64,000 nt of DNA, from assembly GCA_013398955.1 (NCBI GenBank), contig VWPU01014174.1:1-64000 (forward strand), in the 5' to 3' direction. The notes below the pieces were generated by a model. The model was not told where the DNA came from and made no database searches. It saw only the letters and a list, made by a program, of their open reading frames with translations. Position numbers and translations under genes: made by a program. The DNA comes from Callaeas wilsoni. Its lineage: Eukaryota > Chordata > Aves > Passeriformes > Callaeidae. The number at the start of each line of letters is the position of its first letter. Within the stretch, counting starts at the first letter, position 1. Below, piece after piece: positions 31,338 to 58,328 of the stretch.

Positions 31338-34300
31338 TCAGACCACTCTGTTCTTCACCCTTTCAAAGATCTGCATCACTTTTCCTGCTGGGATGCAGCC
31401 TTCCCGCACGATGGTGATGCCACCTTCCCAGAGGGAGAATGAACAAGTCAGGACAATTCCCAAAGGGGCACAGAAAGGAATGTAAAGGAACATCTCGCAC
31501 CAGCAAAGCCACTCAAAATAAAGTTGTGTGGAAGGACCAGAAACTTGTCAGAAAGTGAAACCACCAATGAACACTGACCTCACACTTTGTTCAATGGTTT
31601 GGTTTTCCACTAATGAATCCCTCTCAAATGTCAGCCCGGAGCCACCCAGGACACCTCAGCGTGTGCTGCTGCGTCACTGTGGGCAAGCTCCTGTGCCACC
31701 CTCATTGTGGTGGTCCGAGGCAGCACCCACCCCTCCTCCCGGCAGCACCCACCTTCCCACTCAGATTTTCCTTGCACAACTGTGTTTGTCCTCCTGCCTT
31801 GCTCCCTGTCAACACAGAGGTCCTCCCAGGACATCTTTTGTTTGCTTCTCTTCATCAACATGTTTGCAAATGTCCGGGCACTCAAGAGCTGTTACTCTTG
31901 GAGCACTCTGTGCTGCCAGATTGATACTGGGAAAGGCATGGAGACCTCCCAGGAAAACGCAATTGCTGACACAAAGGGCGGTTCTCACACTCACTTTCAT
32001 CAATCTTTGTGCAGTTGACCACAGTGGATGCCACCACCTCGTCAGACTCTCCATCACAGAGAACACCCTCCAGCTTATGGCCAAGGCGCCTGTGGGGGTA
32101 AAAATAGCAACAACCCTTCACAGAACTTGCTGTGACCTCGTGCTGAGGCTCCCCTCGGTGCAGGACGTCAAACCGAGGTCTGCCACCACTTAAACAGGTG
32201 GGTGGCACTGCCAGTGACCAGGTACTCACGAGATGACCATGTCGTGGTGGGTGCTGTCCACCTCCCCACTGGGGTTGGCCGAGGTGATGGCCAAGGGCCC
32301 GGTCATGTCGATGAGGTGCACCAGGACTGTCAGGTCAGGGACTCGGATCATGATGCTGTCCTGGGTTCCCACCCTGCTGTACCCTGCTCCGACTCCTGGA
32401 AGGATAGGCAGAGGATGTTGGCAGAAGCACGGCTGGCACAGCCCCTGTCGTGGCACCAGGGGGAATCTCCTGCTTTCTTTTGGAAGTGACCCTGCTCCAT
32501 GCACCCAACTACATGTGTCTTTGTGGACGTTTATTGCTGAGCAGAAATCTGTGAGAGCAGAGGTACAATTTGGGGTCTAACTGGGTAAAAAGGAAATGAT
32601 TCATGGCTGGAGACATCACAGCTGTTTCCATGGACACGGGATCTCCCTATATCCCAAAGCCTGACTTCCTGTGATGACTGCCCATCCTCCCATCCTCCAC
32701 CACCTTCCTCTGCCTGTTAAACATGGGTAACTCAGAATCACAGAATCAGCTGGGTTGGAAAAGACCTTTGAGATGATCGAGTCCAACTGATGACCCAACA
32801 CCACCTTGTCACCCAGACCATGGCACCAAGTGCCACATTCAGGCTTTTCTTAACCACCTCCGGGGATGGGGACTCCAACACCTCCCTGGGCAGCCCATTC
32901 CAATGCCCAATCACCCTTTCAGTGAAGACTTTTTTCCTAATGCCCCACCTAAACCTCCCCTGGTGCAGATTAAGGCTGTTCCCTCTCCTCCTGTCCCTGT
33001 TCCCTGGGAGCAGAGCCCGACCCCCCCGGCTGCCCCCTCCTGTCAGGGAGTTGTGCCGAGCCACAAGGTCCCCCCTGAGCCTCCTTTGCTCCAGGCTGAG
33101 CCCCTTTCCCAGCTCGCTCTGCTGCTTCTCACAGGACTTGTGTTCCAGCTCCTCCAGTTCCCTCATTCTGTGCTCTTTCCATGGATTCCCAGGAGCCAGG
33201 GTTGAGGTGAATCATCCCAGTGCTCACAGTGCCTGCCTGTGTCCAAATGGTGGGAAGGCAGAGGCGATGAGCAGGGATGACCATCGGAACCCTCTCATCT
33301 CCTGGATGCTCCACCCTGGTTTGCTCATTCCCAGTGAACAGCGAGGGGCTTGGGAGAGGGGACCCTCCCAGGCTGAGGAGCCTCCCTTGCTGCTGGTTAA
33401 AGAACTCATCCTGCTGACTCGCACTCTTGATGAGTCATTCCAGCTGATTAACACCCTCTGCTAAACATCCACCAAAGCATCTGGGAGCTCCAGAGGGGAT
33501 TTCTTGGGATAAAGTGACCAGAATCTCTCCCCATCACATCCCAAAGGGTGTTGGGATTGCAGACCCGCCGTGCCGAAAACATGAAAGGGGGGCGGAAGGG
33601 TTGTCCTGCTCATCTCACCCAACTTCTTCAGCCACTCTCCCTTCCGGATAATGCAGCCGATGCCACCGGGATAAACGTTTTCCATGAATTCCCAGAGCAG
33701 GGGGCTGATGGGCGGAGCAGCTGCTCGCAACTGCTCCAGGTTGGAAATAAAGATGCAGATGGGCTTTTCTTGAGGCCTGTCCTGAAAAAACAGGGAGAAA
33801 ATAGATGAAGAGGGAAAGTTTACCTGGAGAACCTCGAAGCTTGCTGGGATCCTGGTTCGTGTGTTTCCCAGGGAGCAGGAACTCCAGGCAAGGAAGGTGT
33901 TGTGTCTGCACAAATGCTGAGCTGTGATTGATGCCCCAGCTCAGATCTGCACGTGCAAATTGAAGAGGAGACAGAGCAGCAGCCTGCCCTTGGGAGCCTC
34001 TGGGATGCATCCAAATCCCCCTCTTTAGGCACATCCATCACAGGGACAGCAACGCTCGACTCAGTATCAGCATTTTTTGGATCTTACACACCAGGGGCCT
34101 GATTTTTTCCAAACTTCTGCTGGTATAAACCAAGGTCAAATGCACCAATTCATGATGGGATAAGGGATGGAGAGCTCAACCCCCTGCAAACCAACATCTC
34201 CGTTATCACCCCTCCAGTGCTATGACAGAAGCTTGGTGAAATAATAAATTCGGTGTAAAACCAGCAGTGGAGATGGAGGGGAAATAAAACAAGCTCACAA

Positions 34301-37300
34301 AGCGGTGTCATTTCAGTCCTCAACTGACATCAGCTTCAGTGGGGCCAAATGACTCAGGAACTGGGCATGTATTTACATTCTGTTTGTATTCTCTCATCGG
34401 CAGGGAAGGTCAGCACTGGCACCAGGGCAGCACAGAAGAGACGGCCTTTGTGCCGCTGCTCGCCTTCGGGGCCAGCTGAGATCGTCTGTTATGGTTATTT
34501 CTCCAGGCTAGCCAGGAAATTGCCTCATGGACAACAGACAGGGCCAGGCTGCTAAGGCTGGATTGAAGGTGCAAACTCTGCGGCTGGTTCCAGCACTGAA
34601 CGGCTCCAAAGGTCTGGGGAAATGCAGCCCTGGGATTCTGATTCAGCACTTCATAAGGCACAGAGGACAAACACTGGTTTGGACCCGCTTGTGAGTGGCT
34701 GTTCCTGTTTGGAGTTGTGCTTTGTCCATCCCAGGGATGTCGCTGCCTAATTCCCAGTGCTCCAGCCTGGAGCAGAGGGGCTGTACCCCGGCTTGCTCAG
34801 AAAATGGTCCCTGATATTCTGGTGTGGCTGCTCACGAGCTGCCCATGGTCACCTCCTGAGTCTTGGGACAGCCTGAAACCAGGGGCTCCCCTTTCTGCTT
34901 CTGCACGAACTCATGGGCAGCACACAGAGCCAGGTAAGCAGAGACATCCCTGAATTCCCACCTTGATCCTGTAGACCTTCTCGATGGCTTGAGGGTGTTT
35001 GCAAGAGGCTGCCAGGGCATACACGGTGTCTGTGGGGACCCCACACACGGCCCCTGTGTTCAGCAGCTCCGCGATGGTCCTCAGGCCACTCGTCAGGTGG
35101 GACTTGGGGCAGACACAGGGCAGGGGGTCTTCCTCGTCCTTCTTGGAGCTCTGGACCTGCCAGGAGCCAGGAGGCAACGAATAAGCAAATATATGGAACA
35201 CAGGGCAGGATTCCATCCACCCAAATGCAGGGATCCACTGTGATCCCTTGGCAGTCCAAGGGCAGGGGCAGCACCTCTAGGGATGCTTCCCCCAAAGCTG
35301 GCGAGGTGAATTCCAATTATCAAAGTCAAAGAGAGCAGCTCAGGGTGGACATTTCAACTGCCAATGCCCAAAATTACGGGAGATGAATCCCACCCACCAC
35401 AGCTTCCTGGAGAAATGGCTGCTCTCCAAAGTGACCTAAGGAAACTGTTCGGGAATCCAAAATCCAGAAGAGGATGGAGTTTGAAGTGCATTCCCATGAA
35501 ATGCTGATTTAATGGAAATGTTTCTCTGCAGCAGGAATTGGAGCTGTCAGATCCATCACCCTGGATGGGGGAATTGCCCTGGTCAGACACACCAGATGGC
35601 AGAACGAGTCTGAAGTTAAGAAAAGATGGGGAATTCTTGCTGTCCAGTCTGGGAAACTTCTTAAACTCCCTGCTCCCAAGGTTATGGCTTTGACACTTCA
35701 GTCTACCAGGAATTCTTAGATTGGAGATGGCTGATTCCACAGGACCATGGAGACAGGCATTTTGGAGCAAGGTAGGAGTCTTGTGAACATCCCTGCCCTT
35801 TGTCCAATGTTATTCCTAAAGGAAGAGAGGTCATTTCCAGCTCACAACTCCCTACAAAACTGCCATGACCAGGACTTCGAACAGCACTAAAGCGTTCAGC
35901 AGAAGGGAAATTCCACGGGAATCTGCACTGAAGGCCCCAGAATATCCACTCTGAGCAAGGAAGGTACACCACCGTGCCAAGCATCTCTTACTGTGAGCAG
36001 AGGAGGTCCCATCACCAGGAGGTCCTTCCCGAACATGCAGTTGGTCAGCGAGGCTGTGGCTCCATAGAAACAGATGACGCTGAGGATGCTCAACATCACA
36101 ACTGGAAAAAAATCCCAGAGTCAGAGGTAGGAAGGGTGATTGAATCCCCATCCCTGGAGGGATTTAACAGTGTGGACGTGGCACTTGGGCACAGGGCTTA
36201 GCAGTGCTGGGGGAATGGTTGGACTCAGTCTTGGAGAGCTTGGATTTCATGATGCTGTGATTCTGTTCTGTGGTGACAAAGTCCTGGTGGAACAGCTCCC
36301 ACTAATCCCCTTGCTAAAGCACTCCATGGAATTAAAACTAAAATTGTCGCTTGCAGCAAAGCCAAAGCTTCAGCAGAACTACAGCCATTGACAGTGGTGG
36401 CATGTTCAGCTCATCCCACGCCTCATGGAACATCCATGGTGAAGCAGAGCTGGCCAGAACCTCCAGAGGTGCTCTGATCCAGCAGTATTGGGTTTATTTG
36501 GAAGCTCAAGGCCCTGGGGATGATAGGAGGAAAGATTTCCTTCTCCAGCCATGCTTGCACACACACCAGACTTCCAGGGAAAGAGGAACGCTCTCTGTTT
36601 GATTTTCCCACACTGAGCTTTCCACACTGCTCCCCAACCCCGGACCCACTCCCTGCACTCTGTGGGTGAAGGTTTAATGTCCAAGTTCCCCTAAAACTCA
36701 CTTTCAAATGGCAAAGGGAGATTCTCCAGTGTAAAGAGCAGAAAACAAATGGTCAAGACCTCCATGGCCAGGGTCAGGCAGAACAGCACCACATTAAAAG
36801 AGGAAGCTGTGGAAAGAAACACAAACAAGAGGGACCCACATCAAGCACGGCCCATAAAATGTCCATGAACCAGCAGAAGAGTTCCTAAATCAACTGAGGC
36901 TTGTTTGATTAAACTGAGCAGCCTCAGCTCTGATTTCCCTGTCCATGGAGGAACAAAGAGGCACTGCCAGGGTCTGTTCAGCCCTCAGGTTCCATGGACA
37001 GGCTGCCAAACCCTTGATCTGCCAGGACACTGTGCTCACATGGAAAACACTTCTCCGGCAGCCAAGCAAGTTCTGATTTACACCAGCTGGGTTGGAGTGT
37101 GGCTGTGGATTGCTGCCAGTGGCCCAGTGCATTGAATACTTTCACCTGATTTGATCCTTTTATTTTCTTTGAAATGTTCTCGCATTCCCTCGGGGCTGTT
37201 TCTCCTAAGCCCAGCTCAGCTTCTGTTACTGGCTGTGGGCAAAACATCCCCGTTCTTGCTTAATCAGAGCGACAGGGAGAGCTGAGCCTCCCTCACTGGT

Positions 37301-40300
37301 GCATCTCCACCACAGAGCAACCACAGGAGGATTCATGATCTGACCCCAAACGCCCCTCAATAAACATCCCACGTGGTTCTGAGACTCACCCAAAACGATT
37401 AAAAAAGCATTGAGCACCAAAAAGGCAACGGAGCCAGCAGTGAATCCCTCGGTGTTCCCCACCCCGATGTCCAGCAAGTGGCCTGAAACAGAAGCAGCAC
37501 ATCGGGTTATGAGCAAACCACGAAGAGCAGCGTGACAGGAGAGCGGCAGGAGAGCGGCAGAGCCTCAGCTGGGATTACTGCAGCTCCTGCTGATGGATGG
37601 TGGCCTCATAAAAACCCTCCCTCATCAACACCCGCTGCTTCTGCCATGCGAAGTATTTGAGGTATTAACCGTGGGACTGGTGACGGTTATCCAAAAAAAG
37701 CTCTGGATTTTACCTCCAGCTTGGACTACTCAGGGCCTGGCTGGACACTTTAGCAGCTCCTGCCACATGTCTGAAGCCACAGCTTTAACTTTCCCCACAG
37801 GTACTTATTTTAAGAGTGCCTGGCATAGAGGCTGCATGAACACTCTGCCCATCTGGAGCAAAATGCAGCTTTTAAAAGCCAGGCTCAGCTTCTGAGAGCT
37901 TCTTTCATGGCTGTGACCAGCTGGGATAAACTTCTCCAGGCTCCCGAAGGAGAAATCCAGAACCTGGAGTCTTCCACTGCATAAAAGCATCTCCTGAGTT
38001 GTTATTCTGAGATAACAGCCCAGAGCCAGCCCTATCTCACAATGTTTCTGCAGGGAAATCTTGGCTTTTATTGAAGACACAACTTGGAGTCCTGGAGCTG
38101 AGAGCACCAAGTGCCTGCAGAAATGACAACCAAGTGCAAACTGGGGTGATTTGCGGATTTTTTCCAAGGAGGAATATCAGTAAACCTGATGTCATTGACT
38201 CTCCTGAAAGAAGGAATTCCACTGAAGAAAGCAATCTGAACTTCCCTGAGAACATCCCTTAAAGCAGGAACCATCCCATGCTTTACCTGCCAGGCGCAGC
38301 CAGGTCCAGGCTGCCCAGAAGGCAGCGTAGCAGAACGGGAGCACAGATCCAAACCTCTTCCCGCCCTGCACCTGGATCCGGCACACGAACAGCTGCCCCA
38401 GGGCTCCCGGGATGAGCACGGAGGGGATGGAGAGCTGCTGTCTGCCCGTGTCACCCACGCTGCCCTGGGCGGCCGCAGCCGCAGCCAGGCCATTGCAGAT
38501 GTAGAACAAAGCGTCTGGCACGGCAGCACTGGTGCCACTGGGAATGTCCTTGGACCTCGAGAGCCAGGTCTGGAGAGCCCCCAGCATGGCCTGGAGAGCC
38601 GAGCTGGACAGGGCCTGGGCACCCACGGGAACCAGAACCTTCTCCCCGATGGAGTTGATGAGGCTGGCGAAGGTGGCGTACAGGGAGAGGGCGGTGCAGA
38701 GGCTGCAGGCGGCCCCCAGGAAGGGCCGGGCACCAGGCAGTGGGATCTGGTGGACGAAGGCAGAGGTGAGGATGATGAAGGAGGCGTTCTGCAGCATCTC
38801 CAGGGTGTCTTTGTGGGTCGACATCAGAAACAGCAGGCAGGCGGTGGCCAGGAAGAACCACGCTCCAAACATTCCCAGCCTGCTGTCCTGAGCCGCGGGC
38901 AGCCCAAGGGAGGTGGTGAGCACAAACTCTTCCCAGGACATCACCAGCCAGAGGAGGCTGTGGACACCAAACTTGGTGGTGTGGTAGCTGTCCCCTCTGA
39001 GGTAGCTGTAGAAGCTGGAGAGCAGCTGGCAGCTGGAGATGATGGATATCCACGCTGCTCCCACACAGAAGGTCTTCATGTACCCAAAGAAGTAAAAGGC
39101 AAATATAAAGGGTGACACAGCGTCACAGATGTTCCCCAGGGCCATCGGCTCCGCGTACTTTGTGTTCTTCTTCTTTTCCTCCCCGAGGGCCTTGGAGGAG
39201 CTTTTCTGTGCCGACCCCAGCAGGAGGACATTGAAGAGGGGGTGCCCAAAGCCAGGCAGGACGTACCTTTGAGTGATGCCCTTGAGGAGCAGAGCCACAG
39301 CCCCGTACAGCCCGCACAGGACAATGCCCAGCTCCAGGACTCCGGACACCACCAGGGCCCAGTCCCCGAAGAGCGCGACCGCCTCGAAGCCCAGGGCCAG
39401 CGCGATGGCCCCGAAGATGAAGGGCATGATGTAGTTGACAGTGGCCGAGCAGAAGGAGAGGATTAAGGAGATGGCAATGTAGGCCACCAGCCCGGCCACG
39501 GCGCTCTGGCTGGCTGAGGGCACAGCTGTGCCGGAGGCTGGGAATTGGCTGGCATTCCCGGAGGGAAGCGTTGTGTTCTCCAGGGAGGGATACGCGGCAG
39601 ACAGGACACGTGTGGCCCCGTAGCTGCTCCACAGAGCAGAGAAGGTGAGGAAGGCCGCGCCTCCAAGGTGGTCATACTTGCGGAAGGCGAGAAATCCGGC
39701 CAGGAGCTGGACAAAGCCTCCAATCAGGATGAGGTGGACACCTGAGGGAGGCAGGAAGGGGTCAGGTGTGAAGCCAAGCACAAAAGGGCTGGAGCTGCAG
39801 GAAGCTCCAGGGCACACCCCGTGGCAGGTCCCACCCTTCCAGTGAGCAGCCCTGTGGCCTCTGCCTGCCCCTCTTCCCACCTTTATGGGAATTTCTGGGG
39901 CCCCTGAACCCCTTGGCTCAGTGCGGTGAGCAGGCCCAGGGACGGTTTGGATCTAGCAGGGAATGGCACATGGAATATTTGGCCCAGTGGCTGGGGAAGG
40001 AGGAACAGCCATCCCTGGGAGCACACAGTCCTGCACAATGGACACAGCCCACATTTCCCCACCATCCCACCAGTGGTGTCCATGGGGATGATCCTCAAAG
40101 AGTTCAGGGGATGTTCAGCCCCACCCACCCCGCCCTGAACAGCAGCACTCACCTGCCAGGACCTGCTCTGCTGCCTGAGGCCCGAGGCTGGTGGCGGCCA
40201 CGGTGAAGTTCTGCAGGCACAGGAGGAAGGCGCTGACCACGTTGCCGAGCAGCCCCAGCACCCCCGGCTCGCTGTAGAAGACGGCGGCGAACCCCTCGGC

Positions 40301-40309
40301 GCTCGCCAT
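31338..40309 (-). CDS. Gene B: triple AceTr-like membrane protein fused to a YrdC/Sua5-like domain, 874 aa
   Basis: Ten exons on the minus strand: 40153-40309 (start at 40309), 38287-39741, 37390-37482, 36702-36806, 35992-36101, 34962-35156, 33619-33781, 32230-32395, 31995-32089 and 31338-31423 (stop TGA at 31340-31338). The total is 2625 bases with consistent phases. Residues about 10-640 hold three AceTr-like repeats. Each repeat's second helix pair is recognisable: GGFVQLLAGFLAFRKYDHLG, SCQLLSSFYSYLRGDSYH and GQLFVCRIQVQGGKRFG. Each repeat closes with a helix before LPG, VPVG or VMG. EPGVLGLLG and EPMALGN recall the family's first-helix NPAPLGL motif. Residues 660-874 are a well-preserved YrdC domain: PTDTVY (681-686), YRIKDR (702-707), YPGGIG, IRVPD (776-780), TSAN (797-800), ASTVV and IVREGCIP. 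The likely role is a membrane-bound carboxylate transporter or sensor coupled to a nucleotide-binding YrdC fold. The activity is unproven. Confidence 0.87.
32735..33175 (-). mobile_element. CR1 LINE 3' end, longest copy, in gene B intron
   Basis: About 440 bases match the CR1 3' end in minus orientation: AATCACAGAATCAGCTGGGT, then AAAGACCTTTGAGATGATCG, then GGGCAGCCCATTCCAATGCC, then TGAGCCTCCTTTGCTCCAGG. It is the best preserved CR1 copy in the window and lies in gene B intron 7, between the exons at 32230-32395 and 33619-33781. Confidence 0.92.
36110..36270 (+). mobile_element. CR1 LINE 3' tail in gene B intron
   Basis: CCATCCCTGGAGGGATTTAA, then GTGGACGTGGCACTTGGGC, then GGGGGAATGGTTGGACTCAG ending ATGCTGTGATTCTG, plus orientation. 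It starts within about 10 bases of the upstream edge of the exon at 35992-36101. Confidence 0.88.
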
Positions 40310-42600
40310 GGCCCTTCCAGACAAAACAGCAGAGTCGGCCCTCGCCCTCACAGCCTCCCCGGCAGCGGCGTCTGCAGCGGGCTCGGGCACCCGGCCAGCC
40401 TTCAGAGCCGTGCCCCTGCCCCGAGCAGGGACAAACTGGTGACAGGCTCAGGTGTTTCCATGTTCCTCCCCGCGCCTCGCTGCAGACAAAGGCTCGATTC
40501 AAAGCACCACTTGAGGTGCCTACTTTCCGCAGCCCTATCCAGAAAAAACACACACAACCTATTTAGGCGACCAGGATTCCTGGCAAAAACATGTTTAGGT
40601 GCCCCAAAGCGCTGCAGGTGGTGGTGATGGTTGCTGTCCCCTCTTCTCCAGGCTGCTGGAGATGGAGAGGCATGAATAGCCCAACACAAACCAACAGACA
40701 TCCAGACGAAACCCACAAGGTATTTTTGAGCCGTTCCAGGACGTTTCTTATCCACTGTTGCAGACAAACAGGGCAGGCACGGTGCACACACACACACAGT
40801 CTCCCTTCCAGATGGAATTTTCCAGCTCCATCCCTTTCTTGAAACCCCAGTGACTAAATAGGCTATTTTCAAACCCTTCATATTTCTCCCATGAACTCGT
40901 CTGTTTGCAGGCAGCCCCCACGTTTCCACTCCTCAGCACTCCTGGGTACCAGGAGCTGAAGTTTTCTCTCTGGAGGGTTTTGTTGGGAAACAAAGATGAA
41001 AATAAAACAGCAATGTTCTTGTTATTTGGATATTTTTAGAATATTTGGTGAGCTAAAAAAGCTGGAAAAGGAGAAGGTGATGTATTCTGTTGTCAGCCAT
41101 TCCAAAGAACCCTTTGGAAAGGGAGGAAAGCTCCGCTATTGTTAGGGGAAGCGAGGAGGAGGGAAGGAGCACCACCCAAAGAAAAATAATATGGGAATAA
41201 TAATGAACCTAAATCCCATGATCACACAAATCCTCAGCACAAATTTACATTTTGCAAACATCAGTACCCTCTGGACTCTCTCGTTCTGCTAAAACCCCTG
41301 TATTTTCCTCTCTCCATTTATTCTAAAGGATGTCACTTCCCCAAAGGAAGAAGGATGAAGGATAAATCGGCTCCTGACAGCTCCAAACTGGTTTGGTAGC
41401 TTTTAGCCTTTCCAAATAAGGAAAGGCTAAAAACTTTAGCTTTTAGCCTTTCCAAATAAGGAAAGGCTAAAAACTTCCCCCAAGCAAAGCTCGGGGAACA
41501 ATCAATTATTCAATTATTTGGTTGTGCTAAAGACTGGAATTTGGGTTCAGAGACAGAGATGCACCAAATCCCAGTTCTGGGGCAGGAATATTCCCTTTTC
41601 CCATCAAGGCAGGCCCCAAGGAACTCTGTGCCCTTGAGCAGAGCTGAGCCTGTGGATTCCACGATTTTGCCTTTTTTTTATGATTTTAAATGACACTTCT
41701 GTATAAAGAAGCAGTTTGGTTTAAATGGTTATGCTTGGAAATGAGCCACAAAATTAAGTTCCTGCAGATGTTTTGCCCTGAAACAGCGCAGGCAGTGGCT
41801 CAAAGGCACGCTCAGAGCCCCTGCTTGGAGTGGGTCCCTGGAGGAGGAGGGTGAGCTGGGATTTGGGAGGGACATGGGAGGGAGATTTGGGCTGGCCAGG
41901 TGACTCCTTGGCTCCCAGCAGCGGTTTTTAATTTGCCAGAGCTCATATTGTTGTTGTTTTCTGCATAACAGGCCTGCAACAAAGAGCTGGGAGTGGGGAG
42001 GGATGGAGAGACTCAACTCACAGGGATGTTTTCCTCTTCTTCCAGTGCAGACATGGGAGAAGGGAGGAAGAGAAACATCAGGACATGCTGTGTCAGGCTA
42101 AGGAGGTGTAAAGGGGAAGGAGTGAGAGGATTCAGCCCAAGATACGGAAAAGGAGGAGGAGGAGGAGGGTTTGGGGTTGGAAGCAGCTGCAGTCGTACCC
42201 TCTGCTCACACCTACCCCACACACACCAACCCAGACTCGCGGTCCCTGCTCTTGGACCAGTTTGCAGCTGGGCATTGTCCCTGCCTCTGTTTCCTGCAAG
42301 GTCAGGACACGTCAAACCATGAAAATCCTCCTGGGGTTGTCTCAGGAGCAGCAGCACCGGAATGCCAAGGGCTGCACTGAGCCTGGAAAAACGAGGCTCA
42401 GCAGGGGAACCCCCAGGCGGCTTTTCTGCTCTGGTTTGGCTCCGGGATAACCCCACCCATGGGTGCTGTCACTGTGAGGAGCCATTTCTCCATGTGCACC
42501 ACAGAACACTGGTGGTGCATCAGGATACCGTGGGATTGTACAGGAGGCAGAGGAGCAGACGGAAAATCCCTCTCTCCCAGGTGGGATTAGCAGCTCTCTG
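40310..42600. other. Upstream region of gene B, gene-free
   Basis: The 100 bases above the gene B start are CpG-rich (GGCGGCGA and GCAGCGGCGTC-type runs at 40280-40400), consistent with a TATA-less promoter. A CA run, (CA)n, sits at 40784-40798. Beyond a duplicated hairpin at 41401-41476 nothing else is recognised. Confidence 0.5.
41401..41476. repeat. Tandemly duplicated perfect hairpin (40-bp period)
   Basis: Two adjacent copies of a palindrome with 13-bp perfect arms, TTTTAGCCTTTCC and GGAAAGGCTAAAA, around an AAATAA loop. They start at 41401 and 41441 and no base differs between them. The identity implies a recent duplication. Confidence 0.9.
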
Positions 42601-42609
42601 CACACCCAG

Positions 42610-43195
42610 GGCACCCGCAGCACAGCCACTGTCCAGGAAAACCGGGATGGAGATGTCCCAGGGCACCAGCAGCACAGCCACTGTCCAGGAAAACCGGGAC
42701 GGAGATGTCCCAGGGCACCAGCAGCACAGCCACTGTCCAGGAAAACCGGGATGGAGATGTCCCAGGGCACCAGCAGCACCAGCAGCACACTGTCCAGGAA
42801 AACCGGGACGGAGATGTCCCAGGGGACCAGCAGCACAGACACTGTCCAGGAAAACCGGGACGGAGATGTCCCAGGGCACCAGCAGCACAGCCACTGTCCA
42901 GGAAAACCGGGACGGAGATGTCCCAGGGCACCAGCAGCACAGCCACTGTCCAGGAAAACCGGGATGGAGATGTCCCAGGGCACCAGCAGCACAGCCACTG
43001 TCCAGGAAAACCGGGATGGAGATGTCCCAGGGCACCAGCGGCACCAGCAGCACACTGTCCAGGAAAACCGGGATGGAGGCGTCCCAGAGCACCAGCAGCA
43101 CCAGCAGCACACTGTCCAGGAAAACCGGGCGGGAGATGTCACAGCGGACCAGCAGCACAGCCACTGTCCAGGAAAACCGGGATGGAGATGTCCCC
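42610..43195. repeat. 52-bp minisatellite, about 11 units
   Basis: Tandem units of CACTGTCCAGGAAAACCGGG then (A/C)TGGAGATGTCCCAGGGCACC then AGCAGCACAGC, with a period of 52. Some units have an added CAGCAC(C) triplet or a GGACCAG variant. Because 52 is not a multiple of three, all three frames on both strands stay open, giving long spurious frames such as 42362-43411 and 42342-43379. It lies between gene B and the ACOD1-like gene. Confidence 0.95.
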
Positions 43196-43199
43196 GTGC

Positions 43200-44460
43200 T
43201 GAGGAGACACTTGGACACCTGGGGTACTGCCAGAGCGCTGCACCTCCCGGAGGGATGGGGCAGCTCGGGACCATCCTTCCCTTGCTCAAATCCCTCTGCA
43301 GTGAGGGTAGAGCCAAAGCCACACCCTCCCTCATCCTGCCCCCTCCACATTTTTTCCTTTCCCTGCTTGCCCCCGACATTCCTCACCCTGGAGGTTGCGG
43401 GAATGCTGTGAGAGGTCCTCTCTCCCTCCTGGCTCCTGTCCCGCGGTGACCTCTGAGCCACATGGGACAGGCTCTGGACACCACTTCCTTCACTCACTGC
43501 TGTCCTCACGACAACTTCCCTTCACCCCCTTCCAGGAAAGGTCATTCCCATCTCATCCCACTCCCATGGGGCTGTTAGGCTTTGCAGGATTCACTCTGTG
43601 CATCCGACAGTCGCTGCCGCTTCCCTGTGATTGATATTAACGGGAATATTCCAGGGCACGGACATTCCGTCCCCAGGAGGCTGGAGCAAGGCTCCCCATG
43701 CCATGGAACACATCTACAAACACCAAACCATTCCATTCTCACTCATCCCCAGGGGCATTTTGCCATTAGTTTTCCATCCCACCTTGTTAGCGATAACAAA
43801 CATTTACAGAGCTCTGAGGAAACACTGCCTCTCTCCAGATAAACATGGAAAGAGAACAAGATTCATTTTGGATAAGCACACAGCAAGATGAACAGTGCAC
43901 AGCCACAACACACAGCTGGATTTCACATCACAGCCCTGCCTCTCCTCTGGTGCAAACCAGCACAGAATTGCCAGGGAGACATTGCTACGACAAACGTCTG
44001 CATGGGAGTTAGTAAAAAATTCAATTTTAAATAAAGGTGTGTCCCACTAGGTTGTTATTCTGCCCAAAATAATAAATGTCCCCAGGTTCCACTGCTGGAC
44101 AAAGCTAAGAGCCATGCATTCCCCCAAAATCCAAACATTGCTTTGGGAATGAAGGCTCCCGATGTTCCCTGGAAGCTCCAGGGTGCACTCCCAGTTCAGT
44201 GACCCAGCAGAGCTGGAGATGGAGAAGGAGACCTGGGAAAGACTCAGCCAAACACCCAAACACTGAAGGTATTCGAGAAAAGCATCCAAGAAAACCACCA
44301 CTGCCTGACTTCTGCCTCTGCAGCCGGGATTTACCTGCTTTGGTGACACTTCGGCTCAATGGGAGGATGCTCTTGTCCCTCTCATTTCCTGGTAAATCCC
44401 ACTTTTATAGTCCTCCTCGGGAGGAGGAGCCTGGTGCCGGTTGCTTCACCCATTGGCACC
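43200..44460. other. Gene-free promoter-distal region between gene B and ACOD1-like gene
   Basis: Nothing recognisable as an exon or known repeat. Several short open frames lack homology or splice context. Confidence 0.4.
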
Positions 44461-44483
44461 TGCAGCATTTTGGAGACAGGAGT

Positions 44484-44492
44484 TTCCTTGAA
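44484..44492 (+). promoter_or_regulatory. Candidate STAT (GAS-type) site upstream of ACOD1-like gene
   Basis: TTCCTTGAA matches TTCN3GAA and lies 189 bases upstream of the TATA box. Mammalian ACOD1 is induced by inflammatory and interferon signals (established knowledge), so a STAT site would make sense. The motif is short and could occur by chance. Confidence 0.25.
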
Positions 44493-44680
44493 CCTTGTCA
44501 GTTATTGTCCGAAATATTTTTTTATTTCCTGAAACGGGGGGGGGTTCCCTTCTGTCCAGTAGAGACAAACCACCCCTCCTCACGGATTCCCCCCACCCTC
44601 TGGCTCCCCAGGGGCTGATGTCATCCCCCTGGAAATTCAGTTGCACAAAAACAGAAAGCAAATTGCCTTTTGGACACAGA

Positions 44681-44686
44681 TATAAA
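44681..44686 (+). promoter_or_regulatory. TATA box of the ACOD1-like gene
   Basis: TATAAA in AGATATAAACCC lies 94 bases before the proposed start codon at 44781 and supports that first exon. Confidence 0.6.
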
Positions 44687-44780
44687 CCCTGCCACCAGCA
44701 CCTTCCAGCCACACACCTCTGCCATCCCTCGCGCCGAGCACACCGAGCTGGGAAAAGCACTGGGAAAAGCAGCCACCAGC

Positions 44781-47700
44781 ATGGTCTACTCCACCTTCCA
44801 GGTAAAACTCTTCCAAGCAAAACCCTCCCCATCTCTGAGCTTGCCTTTTGCACTTTAAGGAGGAAATGTCGCTTTCCGGGTGGTTCCTCCACCGGTCCAG
44901 CTGAGCACGGCGTTAAATGGGAACCTGCCCGAAAAGTAACAAATTCCAATGGCTTTCACAGTCACTTAATTCAGCTACTGACCTTTTCCTGCCATCCTGC
45001 TCCTTTCATGTGTCCCAAACATCCTCTGGACCCTGCCATGTGGGGTTTTTTGTTGCTGGGATGTGCTCCGTGGGTTTGGTTCCTCGTGCCCACTCCGAGC
45101 TGGTCCCGCTTGCTGCAGGATCTCGTGGCAGGGCTGCAAAGGCGCTGCTGCCCCTTCCGCTGTGTGGCTTTATTTCCCTGGGTGTTCTTGGCATCCCTGC
45201 TGGACGCAGATTTGGAAAATATTTTTTCCCTCCTTTAAATATGTTGTTACTTTTATGTGCTCGTTTGATCTGTGTCTCACGATGAGAGGCACAACCAAGA
45301 AAACTGCTCTGAGAAAGCTTCCAGCAGTTCCAGTGACAAATTCCCTCTCTGTGTCTCTCCTCTAGAAATCCCAGAAGTTCTTGGCAAGCTCTCGGCAAGT
45401 CCACAAAACTGCTGCCCACGGTTTGTATCTCTCAGCATTCCCCATCCTTTCCTAGCGGGCACCCCTAAATAATCACAGCATTGCTGGGAAAGAGGCGCTG
45501 GGCTGGGCACACCGAGAGAAATCCTCAAATTCTTGGAAGGAAAAGCTTCCGAATGTTTGGGGGTCTTGTGGTGCTTTGTGCCCTCGGGGATAAAGCACCA
45601 GGAGAAAAGCAGCAAAGAGTAAAAATGTGGATTGTTAGTCCTGTGCTAAACCAGAATTTTGACTGGTTTAGAACCAGACTTACCAAATTCTTTGACCGCA
45701 AATGTAAGATGTCGAAAGGGTGGCTCAGATCCTTAACTCCTCCACTTGTCACTGCTTCCTAATCACACCTGATCCTGCTCTGGGCATTGCCTGGGGTGAT
45801 TCATGGATCTCTTTCTGTGGCTCCAGCACTGCCCAGCTTTGGACAAATTAACCACAACTTGCCTGTGTAGACACTTGGTCTATTTTGTCTCTTAATTTGG
45901 TCTGTTTGTCTATTAACTGATCTTAAAATGTGTTCTTGGTCCATTGTGTTTATTAACGTCTTTTTAAAATTTTATTTTAAGTTTATTATAAGTTTATTAA
46001 CTTCTTTTAAAAAGGGCTCTTGGTTTATTGTAAGTTTATGTTTATTGACTTATTTTAAAAGATATTCTTAGTCTATTACATCTATTAATTTATTTTTAAA
46101 TTAGTTATTAATACAATAAATGCTAGGAATGTTGCTTAATGAACACTTGGGGACCACAGAAATAACAGTAATCCACAGGGGTTTATTAGGTCTTGGATCA
46201 AATTTAATTTTTTAGTGAAGTCCTGCCATACCAGAAGGAAAACCCCAGAGTCACGGAATACTGTTAGCTGAAGGGTTAAAAAACCCCGCTGCCTGCTGAG
46301 GTGACAAAGAGCATTTGATGCCGGGAAGGAAACAATCCAGCTTTTCTGGGTGCTGGGTGATTGGAGCAGATTTTCCTGCAGCCTCTCCAAGCCCTGACAT
46401 CACCGCTCCGCTCCGGGAGGGCGGCGGGGGGAGCCGGGATGCTCCCGGGGCCCCGGGCTGGGGTCGCCAGCGGGTCCCGAAGTGCTGAGGGCCGGGATTC
46501 CCGCAGGAACGCGTTCCCCAGGAGCGGGAGGTTCTCCCGGTGCTCCAGGCCGTGATGACCTTCCCAGCTGTGTTTACAGGAGGCTCGGGCTGCGCTCGAG
46601 GTGAGCCCAGGCGTGAGCCAGCGCTCCGTGAGTCACTGATGTGACATTTCGGGATGAATCCAACCTAGGGAAATTAGGGAATGCTCACTTCATTAATTGC
46701 CGTGTCTGCTGTTCCAAAAACAAAGCCTCTTGTGTACCTGCCCACCTGGATGTGCTTTCCTCTCGGAGCAAAGTATTTTTCTTTCTTTCACGTGTGATTA
46801 ATTTAATTTAGACATTAATTCAGCTTTTATCTGCATCTGTGTGTGCACCCCCACATCCATCCATAAGTAAATGTATGGATTTGCCATCCTGCAAGTGTTG
46901 GCTACATGGAATTTTATTTTTCCTGCTCTCCTGTGCGCTCTCAAAATAACCTTATAAATTATAACAGGCCATAACAATTTTATTCTAGGAATTAGAAATA
47001 TAATTATATTAATTATATTCTGTATTCCAATTCTAGAATTAGAAATAATGTCATAAATTATAAATTAATATACGAATTCTAAACATTATATATAAAAATT
47101 AATGTATATAATAATGAGCTATATATAATCTAAGCAAGGCAATTTGTCACTGAAATGAAAAAATACAATAGACACAAACTGGGGATTTTCCATAGAATTT
47201 TAACTTATTTTTAAGGATTAGCATCCTTTGGAGTACATAGGGCTTAAGAGCTTTGTTGCCTGAGTCAAGACATTTCTGTGCCTTGTAGGATGAAATATCC
47301 GGATAAATCAAGGCTTTGGGTCTAGTCCTGCTTTCCAAAAAATTATGGAAGTTTTGGATTTCTGTGGTCCATTCCTGCCTCTGCCTTTCCTCTGGATAAA
47401 GGGACATCATTTGTATTGACACCTCCCAAAAAATGGTTGTTGGACCCCCAAGGCGAGGGGATGGGTCCGAGCTCTGAAGCTGCTTCACCTGAACCTTCTG
47501 GAAGCCACCCCACGAGGTGCCCAGAGCATCCGTGGAATATGGAATTTTATATTTGGAACATATGGAATCTGAGAGTATCCAGGTTGGAAGGGAGCCATGG
47601 GGATGATGAATTCCAGCTCCCTGCCCTTGCAGGACTCCTAAAACTGACCCAGCTGGCTCAGGCAGGTGCAGCTCCCCGAGCCCGGGGACAGCGGGGTGAG

Positions 47701-50700
47701 GAGCCGCGGCTGCCAGCGCAGGGCTCACCTTGTCCTTGTCCCCTCCCTGTGTCCCGGCGCTGCAGTGGTGGCCCGGAGCGCTCCCGAGGAGACCGTGACC
47801 AGCAGCTTCGCCTCCTTCATCCACGCGGCCCGGCCCGAGCACTTGTCGCAGACCGTGCGGCAGCGGAGCAAGAGGATGATCCTGGACAGCATCGGCGTGG
47901 GGCTCGTGGGCAGCACCACGCGCGTCTTCGACATCGCCCTGCGCTACTGCCGGGTAGGGACAGCCCCGCCACCGCCACCGCCACCGGCACCGCCACCGCC
48001 ACCGGCACCGCCACCGGCACCGCCACCGGCACCGCCACCGTCAGGGCTGATCCCGGCGGCTGCCGGGGCTGGGGGTGCCTGGCACCATCCCCGCTCCCTC
48101 CAGGGCTCGCCTGACATTCCCTCCTTTCCACAGGAGCTCTATTCCTCGGTGGCCGTGAGCTCTGTCTATGGAAAGCCAGGAGTGAAGCTCTCCCCGACGC
48201 TGGCAGCCTTCACCAACGGCGTGGCGGTAAGGCTGGATCTTCCCGGGGATCTGTGCTCCCTGCTCTTCCAGGGGAATCTGTGCTCCCGGCTCCTCCAGGG
48301 GAACCTGTGCTCCCTGCTCTTCCAGGGGAATCTGTGCTCCTGGCTCTTCCAGAGGGATCTGTGCTCCCTCCTCTTCCAGGGGGATCTGTGCTCCTGGCTC
48401 CTCCAGGAGGAGGGAGCACAGGGGAACCTGTGCTCACAGCCCTTCCCGGGGATCTGTGCTCCCGGCTCCTCCAGGGGAATCTGTGNAGGAACCCGTGCTC
48501 CCTCCTCTTCCAGGGGAATCTGTGCTCCCTCCTCTTCTAGGGGAATCTGTGCTTCCTGCTCTTCCAGAGGGATCTATGCTCCTGGCTCCTCCAGGGGAAC
48601 CTGTGCTCCCTCCTCTCCCGGGGGGATCTGTGCTCCCGGCTCCTCCAGGGGAACGTGTGCTCACAGCCCTTCTAGGGGAATCTGTGCTCCCTCCTCTCCC
48701 GGGGGGATCTGTGCTCCCGGCTCTTCCAGGGGAACCCGTGCTCACAGCCCTTCCAGGGGAACCTGTGCTCACAGCCCTCTAGAGGGATCTGTGCTCCTTC
48801 CTCTTCCAGGGGGATCTGTGCTCACAGCCCTTCCAGGGGAATCTGTTCCAGTTTTTCCAGGGCAATCTGTGCTCCCGGCCCTTCCAGGGGAATCTGTTCC
48901 GGTTTTTCCAGGGGAATCTGTGTTCCTGGCTCTCTCAGGGGAATCTGTGCCCTGTGGTGCCAGGAATCAGCATTCCAGGAAACAGAGTGGTCACTGATGG
49001 GGGACAAAAGCCGGGAATCTCGTGGCCGAAGCGCCCATGGGGGCACTGAGTGGAGGCTTTGGCAGAATTTCCTCAGGAATATCAGCAAGGAGCCCTCATT
49101 TCCCCAGCGTCCAGCCACACCCACCAGCACGTCCTTGTCTCTGTCTCCCTGGCAGACTCATTCCATGGATTTTGACGACACCTGGCACCCTGCCACTCAC
49201 CCCTCCGGGGCCGTCCTGCCCGCTCTCCTGGCAGCTTCCCAGATGCTCCCTCCGAGCACCAAACCCAACGGCCTGGATTTCCTGCTGGCATTCAACGTGG
49301 GCCTGGAAGTGCAAGGGAGGCTCATGCACTTCTCCACTGAGGCTCACGACATTCCCAAAAGGTAAGGCTCCTGTTCTTCGCCGAGGAGGAAGAGGCTTGG
49401 TGAGTCTGGATTTTAAAATGTTAGTTTAGGTTAAGCCCAGTTTCAGTCCAGTTTAATTTAGCTTTACCTGAGGGTGCAGCCTTACTGAGAGCCAAATGCC
49501 AGAGGCGATTGCACAACATACTTATTTGGTGATTTCCAGGGATTTTGCCTCAAAAATAACCCTCAGGAGGACTCCCAGGGAGTCTGCAGTGCCATCGCCT
49601 GACCCAGCCAGGGCAGGATCCCAGAGCCAGGCAGAGCCTGGTGGTGGGCACAGCCCCTGGACCAACCGCTGCCACCAGCAGTGCCCTGGTGTGATCTGAG
49701 GGATGGAATCAAGCAGGAACGGTTCCCTTGGGTGTGTTTGAGGCTGAATTATTTGTCTGAGGGATAGAAAGTTGGCTGTGTGGACACAAGCCGTGGCACC
49801 TCCTGGAGAAAGTTCTTTCTGGAGATGCTGAGATCCCCCTGGTGTCTCTGAGGAGGTTTCAAGCAGAAACTCAGTTTTCAGTGTTAATTTATGTTAACTA
49901 ACTCTAAATTTAGAGTTAAACTAAACTCTAGTAAAACTTTGACTTGAGTTAATTTATTAGTTAAAATTTATGGTTAGATTTGGAGTCAGGTGAATCCCAC
50001 CTGCACCAGAGCCACGAGGGAGTTCCACTGGCTGATGGGCCCCTCATTTTCCATTAATTTTTCCATGGGAGGGGTGCTTTGGTGTTTCCTGTGCCAGGCA
50101 GCCAGAGCTGCTCATTCCTGCCATCCCCCTGCAGGTTCCACCCTCCCTCGGTGGTGGGCACCCTGGGCAGTGCCGCGGCCACGGCCAAGCTGCTGTCCCT
50201 CAGCTCGGCCCAGTGCTGCCACGCCCTGGGCATCGCCGCGTCCCTGGCCGGGGCGCCCATGGCCAACGCTGCCACCCAGGCCAAGCCGCTGCACGTCGGG
50301 AACGCCACCCGCCTGGGCTTGGAAGCGGCTCTGCTGGCGGCCCGAGGGATGGAGGCCAACCCCTTGATCCTGGATGATATCCCCGGCTGCTCCGGCTTCA
50401 GCGCCTTCTACAGCGTCTACCAACCCAAACCGCTGTCCACACCCAGCGAGCACCACGAGTTCCTGCTGGAAAAGCAGGATATTGCCTTCAAGCGATTCCC
50501 AGCCCACCTGGGGATGCACTGGGTGGTGGATGCTGCCTTGTCCGTCCGGAACCTCTTCATCAACTACGCGGGGTCCTTCTCTCCCTCTCTGATCCGCACC
50601 ATTGTGCTGAAGATCCCGGTGTCCAAGTACATCAACCGGCCTTTCCCCAGCTCGGAGCACCAGGCGAGGCATTCCTTCCAGTTCAATGCCTGTGCTGCCC

Positions 50701-51053
50701 TGCTGGATGGAGAGGTGGGCCTGGGCTCCTTCTCCGAGAGCAGCATCCACCGGCAGGAGCTCAGGGAGCTGCTGGACAAGGTGGTGGTGGAGCACCCTGA
50801 AGACAACGTGGCCAACTTTGACAAGATGTACGGAGAGGTGGCCCTGCTGCTGCACAGCGGGGACGTCCTGACGGGCAAATGTGACACTTTCTATGGGCAC
50901 TGGAGGAAGCCCCTGAGCAAAGAGTCGCTCCTGAAGAAGTTTCGGGCCAACGCCTCCCACGTGCTTCCAGAAGAAAAAATAGAAGCCATCATCACTCTGG
51001 TGGACAACCTGGAGAACCTGTCAGACAGCTCCCAGCTGGCCTGCAGCCTGTGA
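44781..51053 (+). CDS. ACOD1-like: Cis-aconitate decarboxylase (IRG1/ACOD1)-like enzyme, 493 aa, probably mitochondrial
   Basis: Six exons: 44781-44801, 45366-45420, 47766-47953, 48134-48226, 49156-49361 and 50135-51053 (stop TGA at 51051-51053). Phases agree, and the total of 1482 bases compares with 481 aa for human ACOD1. It is a member of the MmgE/PrpD family. Active-site positions of human ACOD1 are all kept: Asp93, Thr97 and His103 in MDFDDTWHPATH, His159 in RFHPPS, Lys207 in ATQAKPLH, Lys272 and His277 in FKRFPAH, and Tyr318 in KYINRPFP. The reaction would be decarboxylation of cis-aconitate to itaconate. The first 25 residues begin MVYSTFQKSQKFL and are rich in Lys, Arg, Ser and His with no acidic residue, a typical mitochondrial presequence. 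It is unclear whether this is the ACOD1 ortholog or a second paralog. It is head to head with gene B and convergent with GLOD5. Confidence 0.93.
46376..46560. promoter_or_regulatory. CpG-dense island inside ACOD1-like intron 2
   Basis: A sharply bounded GC-rich, CpG-rich block (runs such as GGGCGGCGGGGGG and CCGGGGCCCCGGG) stands in otherwise AT-rich intron, with AT-rich runs at 45950-46130 and 46900-47130. It could be an alternative promoter or enhancer. No coding exon with family homology is seen in it. Confidence 0.4.
46900..47130. repeat. AT-rich low-complexity stretch in ACOD1-like intron 2
   Basis: Runs of TATAAT, AATTATA and ATATATAA type with little G or C, in clear contrast to the GC-rich exon 3 that follows. 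There is no target duplication or other mobile element feature. Confidence 0.7.
47530..47645 (-). mobile_element. Possible CR1 LINE tail
   Basis: ATCTGAGAGTATCCAGGTTG, then GGAAGGGAGCCATGGGGATG, then TGCCCTTGCAGGACTCC resembles a diverged CR1 tail in minus orientation, just upstream of ACOD1-like exon 3. Confidence 0.5.
47965..48042. repeat. CCACCG-type simple repeat in ACOD1-like intron 3
   Basis: Tandem CCGCCACCG/CCGGCACCG hexamers begin 12 bases after the exon 3 donor. The stretch is open in proline- and alanine-rich frames, but the phase and family alignment show it is intron. Confidence 0.85.
48235..48960. repeat. 27-bp minisatellite filling ACOD1-like intron 4, with an assembly N
   Basis: About 25 diverged copies of GGGGAATCTGTGCTCCCTGC plus CTCTTCCA fill nearly the whole intron between the exons at 48134-48226 and 49156-49361. 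The 27-bp unit is a multiple of three, so frames stay open and give artificial 9-residue repeats. The N at 48486 marks a probable collapse. The unit carries a polypyrimidine-like CTCTTCCA followed by GGGGA but no regular AG acceptor. Confidence 0.93.
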
Positions 51054-54252: not shown

Positions 54253-57650
<3,398 letters not shown>

Positions 57651-57758
57651 TGTGAGCAAATCTGAGCTAAAAGCAATAAATCCATTAATATTTACAGCTC
57701 TGGACTTTCATCTGCCAGAGGACTTTCAGTGGAGAGCTGTGGAGCGGTGGTGCCTGTC

Positions 57759-58328
57759 GGGATACCTGGATGTGGGAACACCTCTCACACGGAATATCTC
57801 CATGTGGTTTACCCCTGGTTTAATCCTGTTGGGATACCTGGCTGTGGGACCACCTCACACACGGAATATCTCCAGGAGGTTTAACCCTGGGTTAATCCTG
57901 TTGGGATACCTGGATGTGGGAACACCTCTCACACGGAATATCTCCATGTGGTTTACCCCTGGTTTAATCCTGTTGGGATACCTGGATGTGGGAACACCTC
58001 ACGCATGGAATGTCTCCATGTGGTTTAACCCTGGTTTAATCCTGTTGGGATACCTGGATGTGGGAACACCTCACACATGGAATGTCTCCATGTGGTTTAA
58101 CCCTGGTTTAATCCTGTTGGGATACCTGGATGTGGGAACACCTCACACATGGAATGTCTCCATGTGGTTTAACCCTGGTTTAATCCTGTTGGGATACCTG
58201 GATGTGGGAACACCTCACACATGGAATGTCTCCATGTGGTTTAACCCTGGTTTAATCCTGTTGGGATACCTGGATGTGGGAACACCTCACACATGGAATG
58301 TCTCCATGTGGTTTAACCCTCTGGTTTA
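57759..58328. repeat. 72-bp minisatellite, eight units
   Basis: Units start at 57761, 57833, 57905, 57977, 58049, 58121, 58193 and 58265, an exact 72-bp period. Each contains GATACCTGGATGTGGGAACACC, then CATGTGGTTTAACCCTGGTTTA. The last four are nearly identical and the first three differ more, so expansion has gone on at the right end. As 72 is divisible by three, one frame reads as eight 24-residue repeats (57652-58329), but with no promoter, splice or homology support. Confidence 0.96.

Follow-up and report, generated by a model that had tools for sequence, protein, structure and literature searches.

Vertebrate ATO proteins of about 900 residues, in which three Gpr1/Fun34/YaaH units are combined with a Sua5/YciO/YrdC domain, were described by Ghasemi et al. 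(iScience, 22 June 2026; PMC13316224). In that paper, these fusions fall into two clades and occur in every major vertebrate lineage except mammals, the protostome ATO clades are without a YrdC domain, the AceTr relatives are proton-dependent monocarboxylate permeases, and the meaning of the fusion is left unclear; the passages of the paper that were searched contain none of the terms itaconate, aconitate, irg1 or synteny. Here, we analysed a 64,000-nucleotide stretch of the genome of the bird Callaeas wilsoni (contig VWPU01014174.1, positions 1 to 64,000; hereafter the window). It carries an ortholog of these fusions, gene A (ATO3-YrdC), lying head-to-head with IRG1L, a gene for a cis-aconitate decarboxylase-like protein. 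The fusion architecture is already published for vertebrates, while the link between gene A and IRG1L is, as far as the open-access literature goes, new here; we found nothing in that literature joining itaconate with Gpr1 Fun34, or aconitate decarboxylase with YrdC, and nothing on loss in birds or monotremes.

We regard it as a strong lead that position and, in part, expression and distribution tie gene A to an enzyme that likely makes itaconate. The reading we prefer, with somewhat less than even confidence, is that the product of gene A is a membrane protein of the AceTr/SatP type, with three units in one chain and a Sua5/YrdC domain that would lie in the cytosol and appears competent for catalysis, and that it is a partner of IRG1L. 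An earlier note on this DNA had proposed the fused transporter-like/YrdC protein, which is confirmed as real; its interpretation is partly supported, in that the threefold AceTr-like repeat, the YrdC motifs and the single fused chain hold, and its two suggestions for the function, a transporter gated by nucleotide or carboxylate or a compartment-specific threonylcarbamoyl-AMP synthase, would be candidates. That note had mentioned neither the head-to-head IRG1L gene nor a second ATO3-YrdC gene in the window, gene B.

Gene model and domains of gene A

Gene A runs along the minus strand from 40309 to 31338 as ten exons with GT-AG borders, which form a single open frame of 874 residues; the membrane region, a long one, is encoded by exons 1-5, and the YrdC domain by exons 6-10.

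40153..40309, minus strand: gene A (ATO3-YrdC) exon 1, start codon and first membrane helix of repeat 1 (EPGVLGLL); ortholog-profile match, E 5e-20
38287..39741, minus strand: exon 2, remainder of repeat 1, whole of repeat 2 and first half of repeat 3; sequons NTT108 and NAS115
37390..37482, minus strand: exon 3, repeat 3; ortholog-profile match
36702..36806, minus strand: exon 4, repeat 3; ortholog-profile match
35992..36101, minus strand: exon 5, last helix of repeat 3; ortholog-profile match
34962..35156, minus strand: exon 6, linker and YrdC start (PTDTVY), ending with the K of KDR; PF01300 match in the genome
33619..33781, minus strand: exon 7, YrdC, motif DRPQEKP; ortholog-profile match
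32230..32395, minus strand: exon 8, YrdC, motifs IRVPD and TSAN; ortholog-profile and PF01300 matches
31995..32089, minus strand: exon 9, YrdC, motif ASTVV; ortholog-profile match
31338..31423, minus strand: exon 10, C-terminus and stop; ortholog-profile match

The frame is also kept by alternative AG/GT choices of 3-6 bases at three borders. With its three AceTr units, the Sua5/YciO/YrdC domain at its C-terminus and a length of about 900 residues, gene A belongs among the vertebrate ATO-Sua5 fusions. In the homolog search, the 8,000 candidates with the most shared words were scored, giving 327 relatives, of which the best 120 were listed. PF01300 is present in all 120, and the 115 that carry organism names are all vertebrate; the closest to gene A among the matches listed is hooded crow LOC104691596 (94% identity). 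The 108 proteins of 840-920 residues were kept for alignment, and the 12 shorter or longer ones were dropped. The joined protein is kept from sharks to birds, with the orthologs aligned over both halves, so the single chain proposed by the earlier note holds. Within an intron of gene A, at about 32730-33200 of the window, lies a repeat-like sequence, which we take to resemble a bird CR1-type repeat.

The threefold AceTr-like repeat was likewise borne out. PF01184 (AceTr/Ato) scored 30.4 bits on the gene A protein, above the curated cut-off of 25, the profile check that the earlier note had called for, and 21.4 bits on the platypus ortholog, under that cut-off. A SatP-type six-helix fold was found for each unit of gene A, with repeats 1 and 2 matching the SatP fold closely. 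The comparison of the repeats with one another gave a divided answer: repeat 1 against repeats 2 and 3 of its own chain was weak in direct profile comparison, while in gene B the third unit gave a match to repeat 1 at 4.3e-6. A six-frame scan of the whole genome, an assembly of 1.0 Gb in 12,470 contigs, with PF01184 gave no match, which we think is due to the signal being split by exons. Mean column entropies of repeats 1, 2 and 3 are 0.93, 1.23 and 1.14 bits across the 108 orthologs, and residues 1-640 hold 90 invariant positions.

SatP is a succinate/acetate permease according to its PDB title. Gene A differs from the SatP/AceTr permeases (PDB 5ys3, 5zug) in having three units per chain, a fused enzyme domain, and EPxxLGL at the position of the motif NPAPLGL in the first transmembrane helix (TM1), so that the exact AceTr motif is absent. 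In repeat 1, E14, P15, G19, L21 and N23 are invariant in 108/108 orthologs. By our own count, N23 aligns with the residue that we take to be Phe17 of the SatP constriction. We regard gene A as AceTr-related, with the fold in common, and make no claim that it is a canonical Ato transporter.

Loop sides were assigned from a SatP-like topology, and sequons and Lys/Arg residues were counted across the 108 orthologs. Under this predicted topology, lumenal loops carry 3.1 N-glycosylation sequons per 100 residues, cytosolic loops 0.54, helices 0.24 and YrdC 0.23, and the Lys+Arg share is 13.8% in cytosolic and 4.8% in lumenal loops. A single loop of repeat 1, the one joining helices 3 and 4, holds 251 of the 306 lumenal sequons, and at least one sequon is found there in 105/108 orthologs. 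Sequons and charges together favour a membrane of the secretory pathway, with the YrdC domain and both ends of the chain probably in the cytosol, and the sequon bias disfavours a mitochondrial location.

The YrdC domain is the best-conserved part of gene A (mean entropy 0.66 bits; 66/212 positions invariant). It shows the Sua5/YrdC (PF01300) fold with PTxT, KxR, SAN and ST motifs; P681, D683, T684, Y686, K705, R707, R777, S798, A799, N800, S836 and T837 are invariant in 108/108 orthologs, and T682 of PTDT is kept in 105/108. In the motifs that the earlier note had named (PTDT, KDR, IRVPD and TSAN), and in ST, the checked residues are invariant or nearly so, and the domain is apparently catalysis-competent. 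Like the Sua5/TsaC/YRDC threonylcarbamoyl-AMP synthases, it has the same fold and the checked motif residues; unlike them, it belongs to a clade of its own, is tied to a membrane protein, and is followed soon by the end of the chain. The surroundings of its pocket are also unlike those of Sua5, with YPGG instead of WPGP and with C714 and C748 invariant. We take the YrdC partners in TsaN and in HypF/TobZ/GdmN to be soluble domains, not a transporter. With TsaN (TsaD-TsaC-SUA5-TcdA, 8ide) and HypF/TobZ/GdmN, gene A shares a YrdC-type domain within a larger protein.

A separate YRDC-like gene on contig C7272 of the bird genome is 29% identical to the gene A YrdC domain, and we take it to be the canonical YRDC. 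In the YrdC tree, a 100/99 branch has on one side gene A, gene B, the mollusc and marine forms, P0194 and P0211, and on the opposite side the bird YRDC (C7272), P0238 and P0239; the bird YRDC is a long branch whose exact place is unsure. With the mollusc and marine forms, the gene A YrdC domain shares 52-60% identity. Orthology between it and canonical YRDC was rejected, given the separate C7272 gene, the 29% identity and the 100/99 split. The existence of a separate canonical-YRDC candidate weakens the idea that gene A is the cell's main t6A enzyme. Short YrdC-only forms of gene A's clade are annotated in fish and frogs (P0144-P0151 and others), and two snail proteins, P0140 (Batillaria) and P0153 (Pomacea), carry two tandem YrdC stretches of this clade. 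P0194 is a 370-residue protein with hydrophobic helices followed by a YrdC domain of the same clade.

IRG1L and its linkage to gene A

IRG1L lies on the opposite strand from gene A.

44781..51053, plus strand: IRG1L (cis-aconitate decarboxylase-like), 493 residues, six exons, head-to-head with gene A
44781-44801, 45366-45420, 47766-47953, 48134-48226, 49156-49361 and 50135-51053, plus strand: IRG1L exons
40310..44780, no strand: candidate shared regulatory region, the 4,471 bp that separate the gene A and IRG1L start codons

The IRG1L protein matched solved ACOD1 (PDB 6r6u) at E 3.2e-169 and, like ACOD1/IRG1, has MmgE/PrpD domains and identical active-site motif residues. Its homolog search, again scoring the 8,000 candidates with the most shared words, gave 842 matches, of which the best 120 were listed; 'immunoresponsive gene 1, like' is a frequent name among its fish and shark orthologs, and 'cis-aconitate decarboxylase-like' among those of birds. 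Ten checked active-site positions are identical in 111/111 sequences, the window's included, where the choice of catalytic residues within the motifs is our assumption. Unlike ACOD1/IRG1, IRG1L appears to be a paralog: a second ACOD1-family gene of this bird, on contig C1018, reaches 456 bits against solved ACOD1 for the same exon in which IRG1L reaches 350, and the two are 54% identical. On the strength of this closeness, we take the C1018 gene to be ACOD1 proper and the window gene to be the paralog IRG1L. We assume that IRG1L makes itaconate.

Of 40 species that appear by name in both match lists, 33 carry gene A and IRG1L on one contig, a call made from equal lengths of the longest contig per 90% cluster, which shows linkage and not distance. 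This comparison left out rows without contig data and some second rows per species, such as a second Pleurodeles assembly. The linked species span chimaera, stingray, sturgeon, gar, teleosts, frogs, newts, a caecilian and lizards; birds are not among the 33, and linkage in birds is given by the window itself and an antshrike row. Among the five species with locus tags in both lists, the tags of the two genes are consecutive in four (Albula, Aldrovandia, Phrynocephalus and Prochilodus).

Published expression reports bring the two genes together in part. Among the matches listed, si:ch211-153b23.3 is the name of fish gene A orthologs. In a study of zebrafish exposed to nanoparticles, a single module has irg1l, si:ch211-153b23.3, si:ch211-153b23.5, zgc:100868 and noxo1a as hub genes (PMC11140123). 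Zebrafish irg1l is listed together with si:ch211-153b23.4 and.5 in reports on Shigella sonnei infection and on exposure to perfluorooctane sulfonate (PFOS), and.4 is annotated as YrdC domain-containing protein-like. Further reports give a 10-50-fold induction of zebrafish irg1l by bacterial immersion (PMC3206475) and a correlation of gut bacterium abundance with IRG1L expression in chicken jejunum (PMC11171086).

Distribution of the fusion, gene B and window neighbours

Where PMC13316224 excepts mammals, we found a full-length fusion ortholog in platypus (P0026; 872 residues, 67% identity to gene A). Among the matches listed, monotremes thus have the fusion in platypus and IRG1L in echidna (P0261). 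No therian fusion or IRG1L was seen among the best 120 of 327 and the best 120 of 842 matches, respectively, and we infer that therians may have lost both genes.

Outside vertebrates, where the same paper has protostome clades without YrdC, the octopus protein P0173 seems to carry YrdC fused to the terminal part of the last membrane helix. Its 35-residue tail match had E 8e-6, against a best value of E 0.23 in 1,200 shuffles; among the six N-termini tested overall, the marine protein P0164 gave E 0.0075, and the tails of P0194, P0163, P0179 and P0211 fell below several shuffles. The octopus match suggests that the fusion is not confined to vertebrates.

Gene B is a second ATO3-YrdC paralog, at lower window coordinates.

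12375..20444, plus strand: gene B, 874 residues, nine exons; from ortholog profile, Pfam YrdC and splice borders
12375-12435, 13313-13426, 14519-16204, 16803-16902 and 17519-17667, plus strand: gene B exons 1-5
17835-17947, 18476-18565, 19614-19736 and 20256-20444, plus strand: gene B exons 6-9

The profile match does not extend to the first two exons, which are based on frame and splice borders only. The gene A ortholog profile matches gene B at E 2e-113 over positions 252-871, and in Pfam gene B gives YrdC alone (E 2.5e-33). The 609-residue open reading frame at 14488-16314, within gene B, matched no family in the Pfam scan and was recognised by eye and by the ortholog profile. In the YrdC tree, gene B is a long branch outside gene A and the molluscs (99/97), and it may represent the second vertebrate clade of PMC13316224.

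Other features of the window gave the following matches, and for the remaining neighbours Pfam matches were weak or none.

55710-56099, minus strand: VOC glyoxalase-like exon adjoining IRG1L (PF00903, E 2.3e-6), presumably resembling GLOD5
58707-59354 and 62328-63224, minus strand: matches to the Sec3/exocyst C-terminus (PF20654, E 2.1e-5 and 7.8e-4), perhaps pieces of one EXOC1-like gene; no PDB match for the first piece
8624-8196 and 7001-6585, minus strand: exon-like stretches with no Pfam match, which we assume to resemble ES1/GATD3 (DJ-1 superfamily)
42590-43190, 48230-48900 (in an IRG1L intron) and 57650-58320: minisatellite-like tandem repeats

Proposed role of gene A and rival explanations

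Our best guess would be that gene A transports itaconate/dicarboxylates and bears an adenylate-forming domain in the cytosol, itaconate being suggested as a substrate because it is an analogue of succinate. Infection or epithelial stress would induce IRG1L and so lead to itaconate (methylene-succinate). Two ATO3 chains would probably complete a SatP-like six-unit ring, such a ring being a hypothesis of PMC13316224, and the ATO3 part would move itaconate or a related small dicarboxylate across the plasma or an endolysosomal membrane, a substrate and a direction of transport that we infer. On the cytosolic side, YrdC would bind ATP and form an adenylate, possibly threonylcarbamoyl-AMP or a relative of it, which would regulate or use the transported compound. 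The full form of this proposal, an itaconate locus of many non-therian vertebrates in which IRG1L makes itaconate, ATO3-YrdC moves it and couples it to ATP-dependent adenylate chemistry, and therians lost both, strikes us as rather doubtful.

Several observations weigh against a partnership of gene A with IRG1L in itaconate transport. The EPxxLGL motif and the invariant Asn at the presumed constriction position make any inference of substrate from SatP unsafe, and the sequon signal comes mostly (251/306) from one fast-evolving loop. In gene B, PF01184 gave no match and KxR reads KRQ, so that the R is lost while the other motifs are kept. Gene A and IRG1L lie on different contigs in seven of the 40 species (Ascaphus, Chelonia, Eleutherodactylus, Engystomops, Mantella, Ranitomeya and Scyliorhinus), some of which may be represented by different assemblies, and in Engystomops, the fifth species with tags, the locus tags are widely separated. 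NF-kB-type sites in the window number 30 against 27.7 expected, an absence of enrichment that lends no support to shared control. The reports on Shigella sonnei and PFOS name.4 and.5 and not.3, and si:ch211-153b23.3 was not significant in a Stim2 study (adjusted P 0.18; PMC11489432) and has table values that span only -0.2 to 1.9 elsewhere (PMC8877790). Linkage and co-induction can, moreover, reflect shared regulation without shared chemistry.

One rival view is that gene A is an epithelial transporter of acetate or short-chain fatty acids, as microbial Ato is, with the IRG1L linkage reflecting shared inflammatory control only. The monocarboxylate permease activity given for AceTr relatives in PMC13316224, the close match of repeats 1 and 2 to the SatP fold, and the chicken jejunum data (PMC11171086) would all fit it. 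The pore motif of gene A has diverged (EPxxLGL, N23), however, and a link with a cis-aconitate decarboxylase-like gene that spans cartilaginous fish through lizards, and is present in this bird, seems too specific for shared tissue, and we consider the acetate explanation unlikely. If the membrane part were mainly an anchor, gene A would be a membrane-tethered threonylcarbamoyl-AMP synthase for local t6A tRNA modification. That is improbable in view of the separate canonical-YRDC candidate, the distinct clade and 29% identity of the gene A domain, the conservation of the repeats themselves (90 invariant positions in residues 1-640), and the lack of a t6A partner gene among the few neighbours identified.

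A sensory role of YrdC, in which its binding of a nucleotide or carboxylate would gate the channel and no product be released, would agree with a pocket that differs from Sua5 (YPGG for WPGP; C714 and C748 invariant) and with gene B having lost the R of KxR while keeping the other motifs. We nevertheless judge it quite unlikely, as the whole motif set is invariant in 108/108 gene A sequences, which goes beyond the usual need of simple binding. That two adjacent genes were misjoined, or that gene A is a pseudogene, is scarcely conceivable; we found nothing in favour of either, and both were ruled out by the one open frame, the GT-AG borders and the 108 full-length orthologs aligned across both halves.

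The gene A fusion has been an orphan, and its pairing with IRG1L, together with the co-listing in zebrafish, makes an itaconate role directly testable. The question raised is whether non-therian vertebrates move or process itaconate via gene A. If they do, a transporter-enzyme step would be added to the pathway of an intensely studied immune metabolite, one that therian mammals such as mice and humans apparently lack, and a YrdC domain would have a role outside tRNA.

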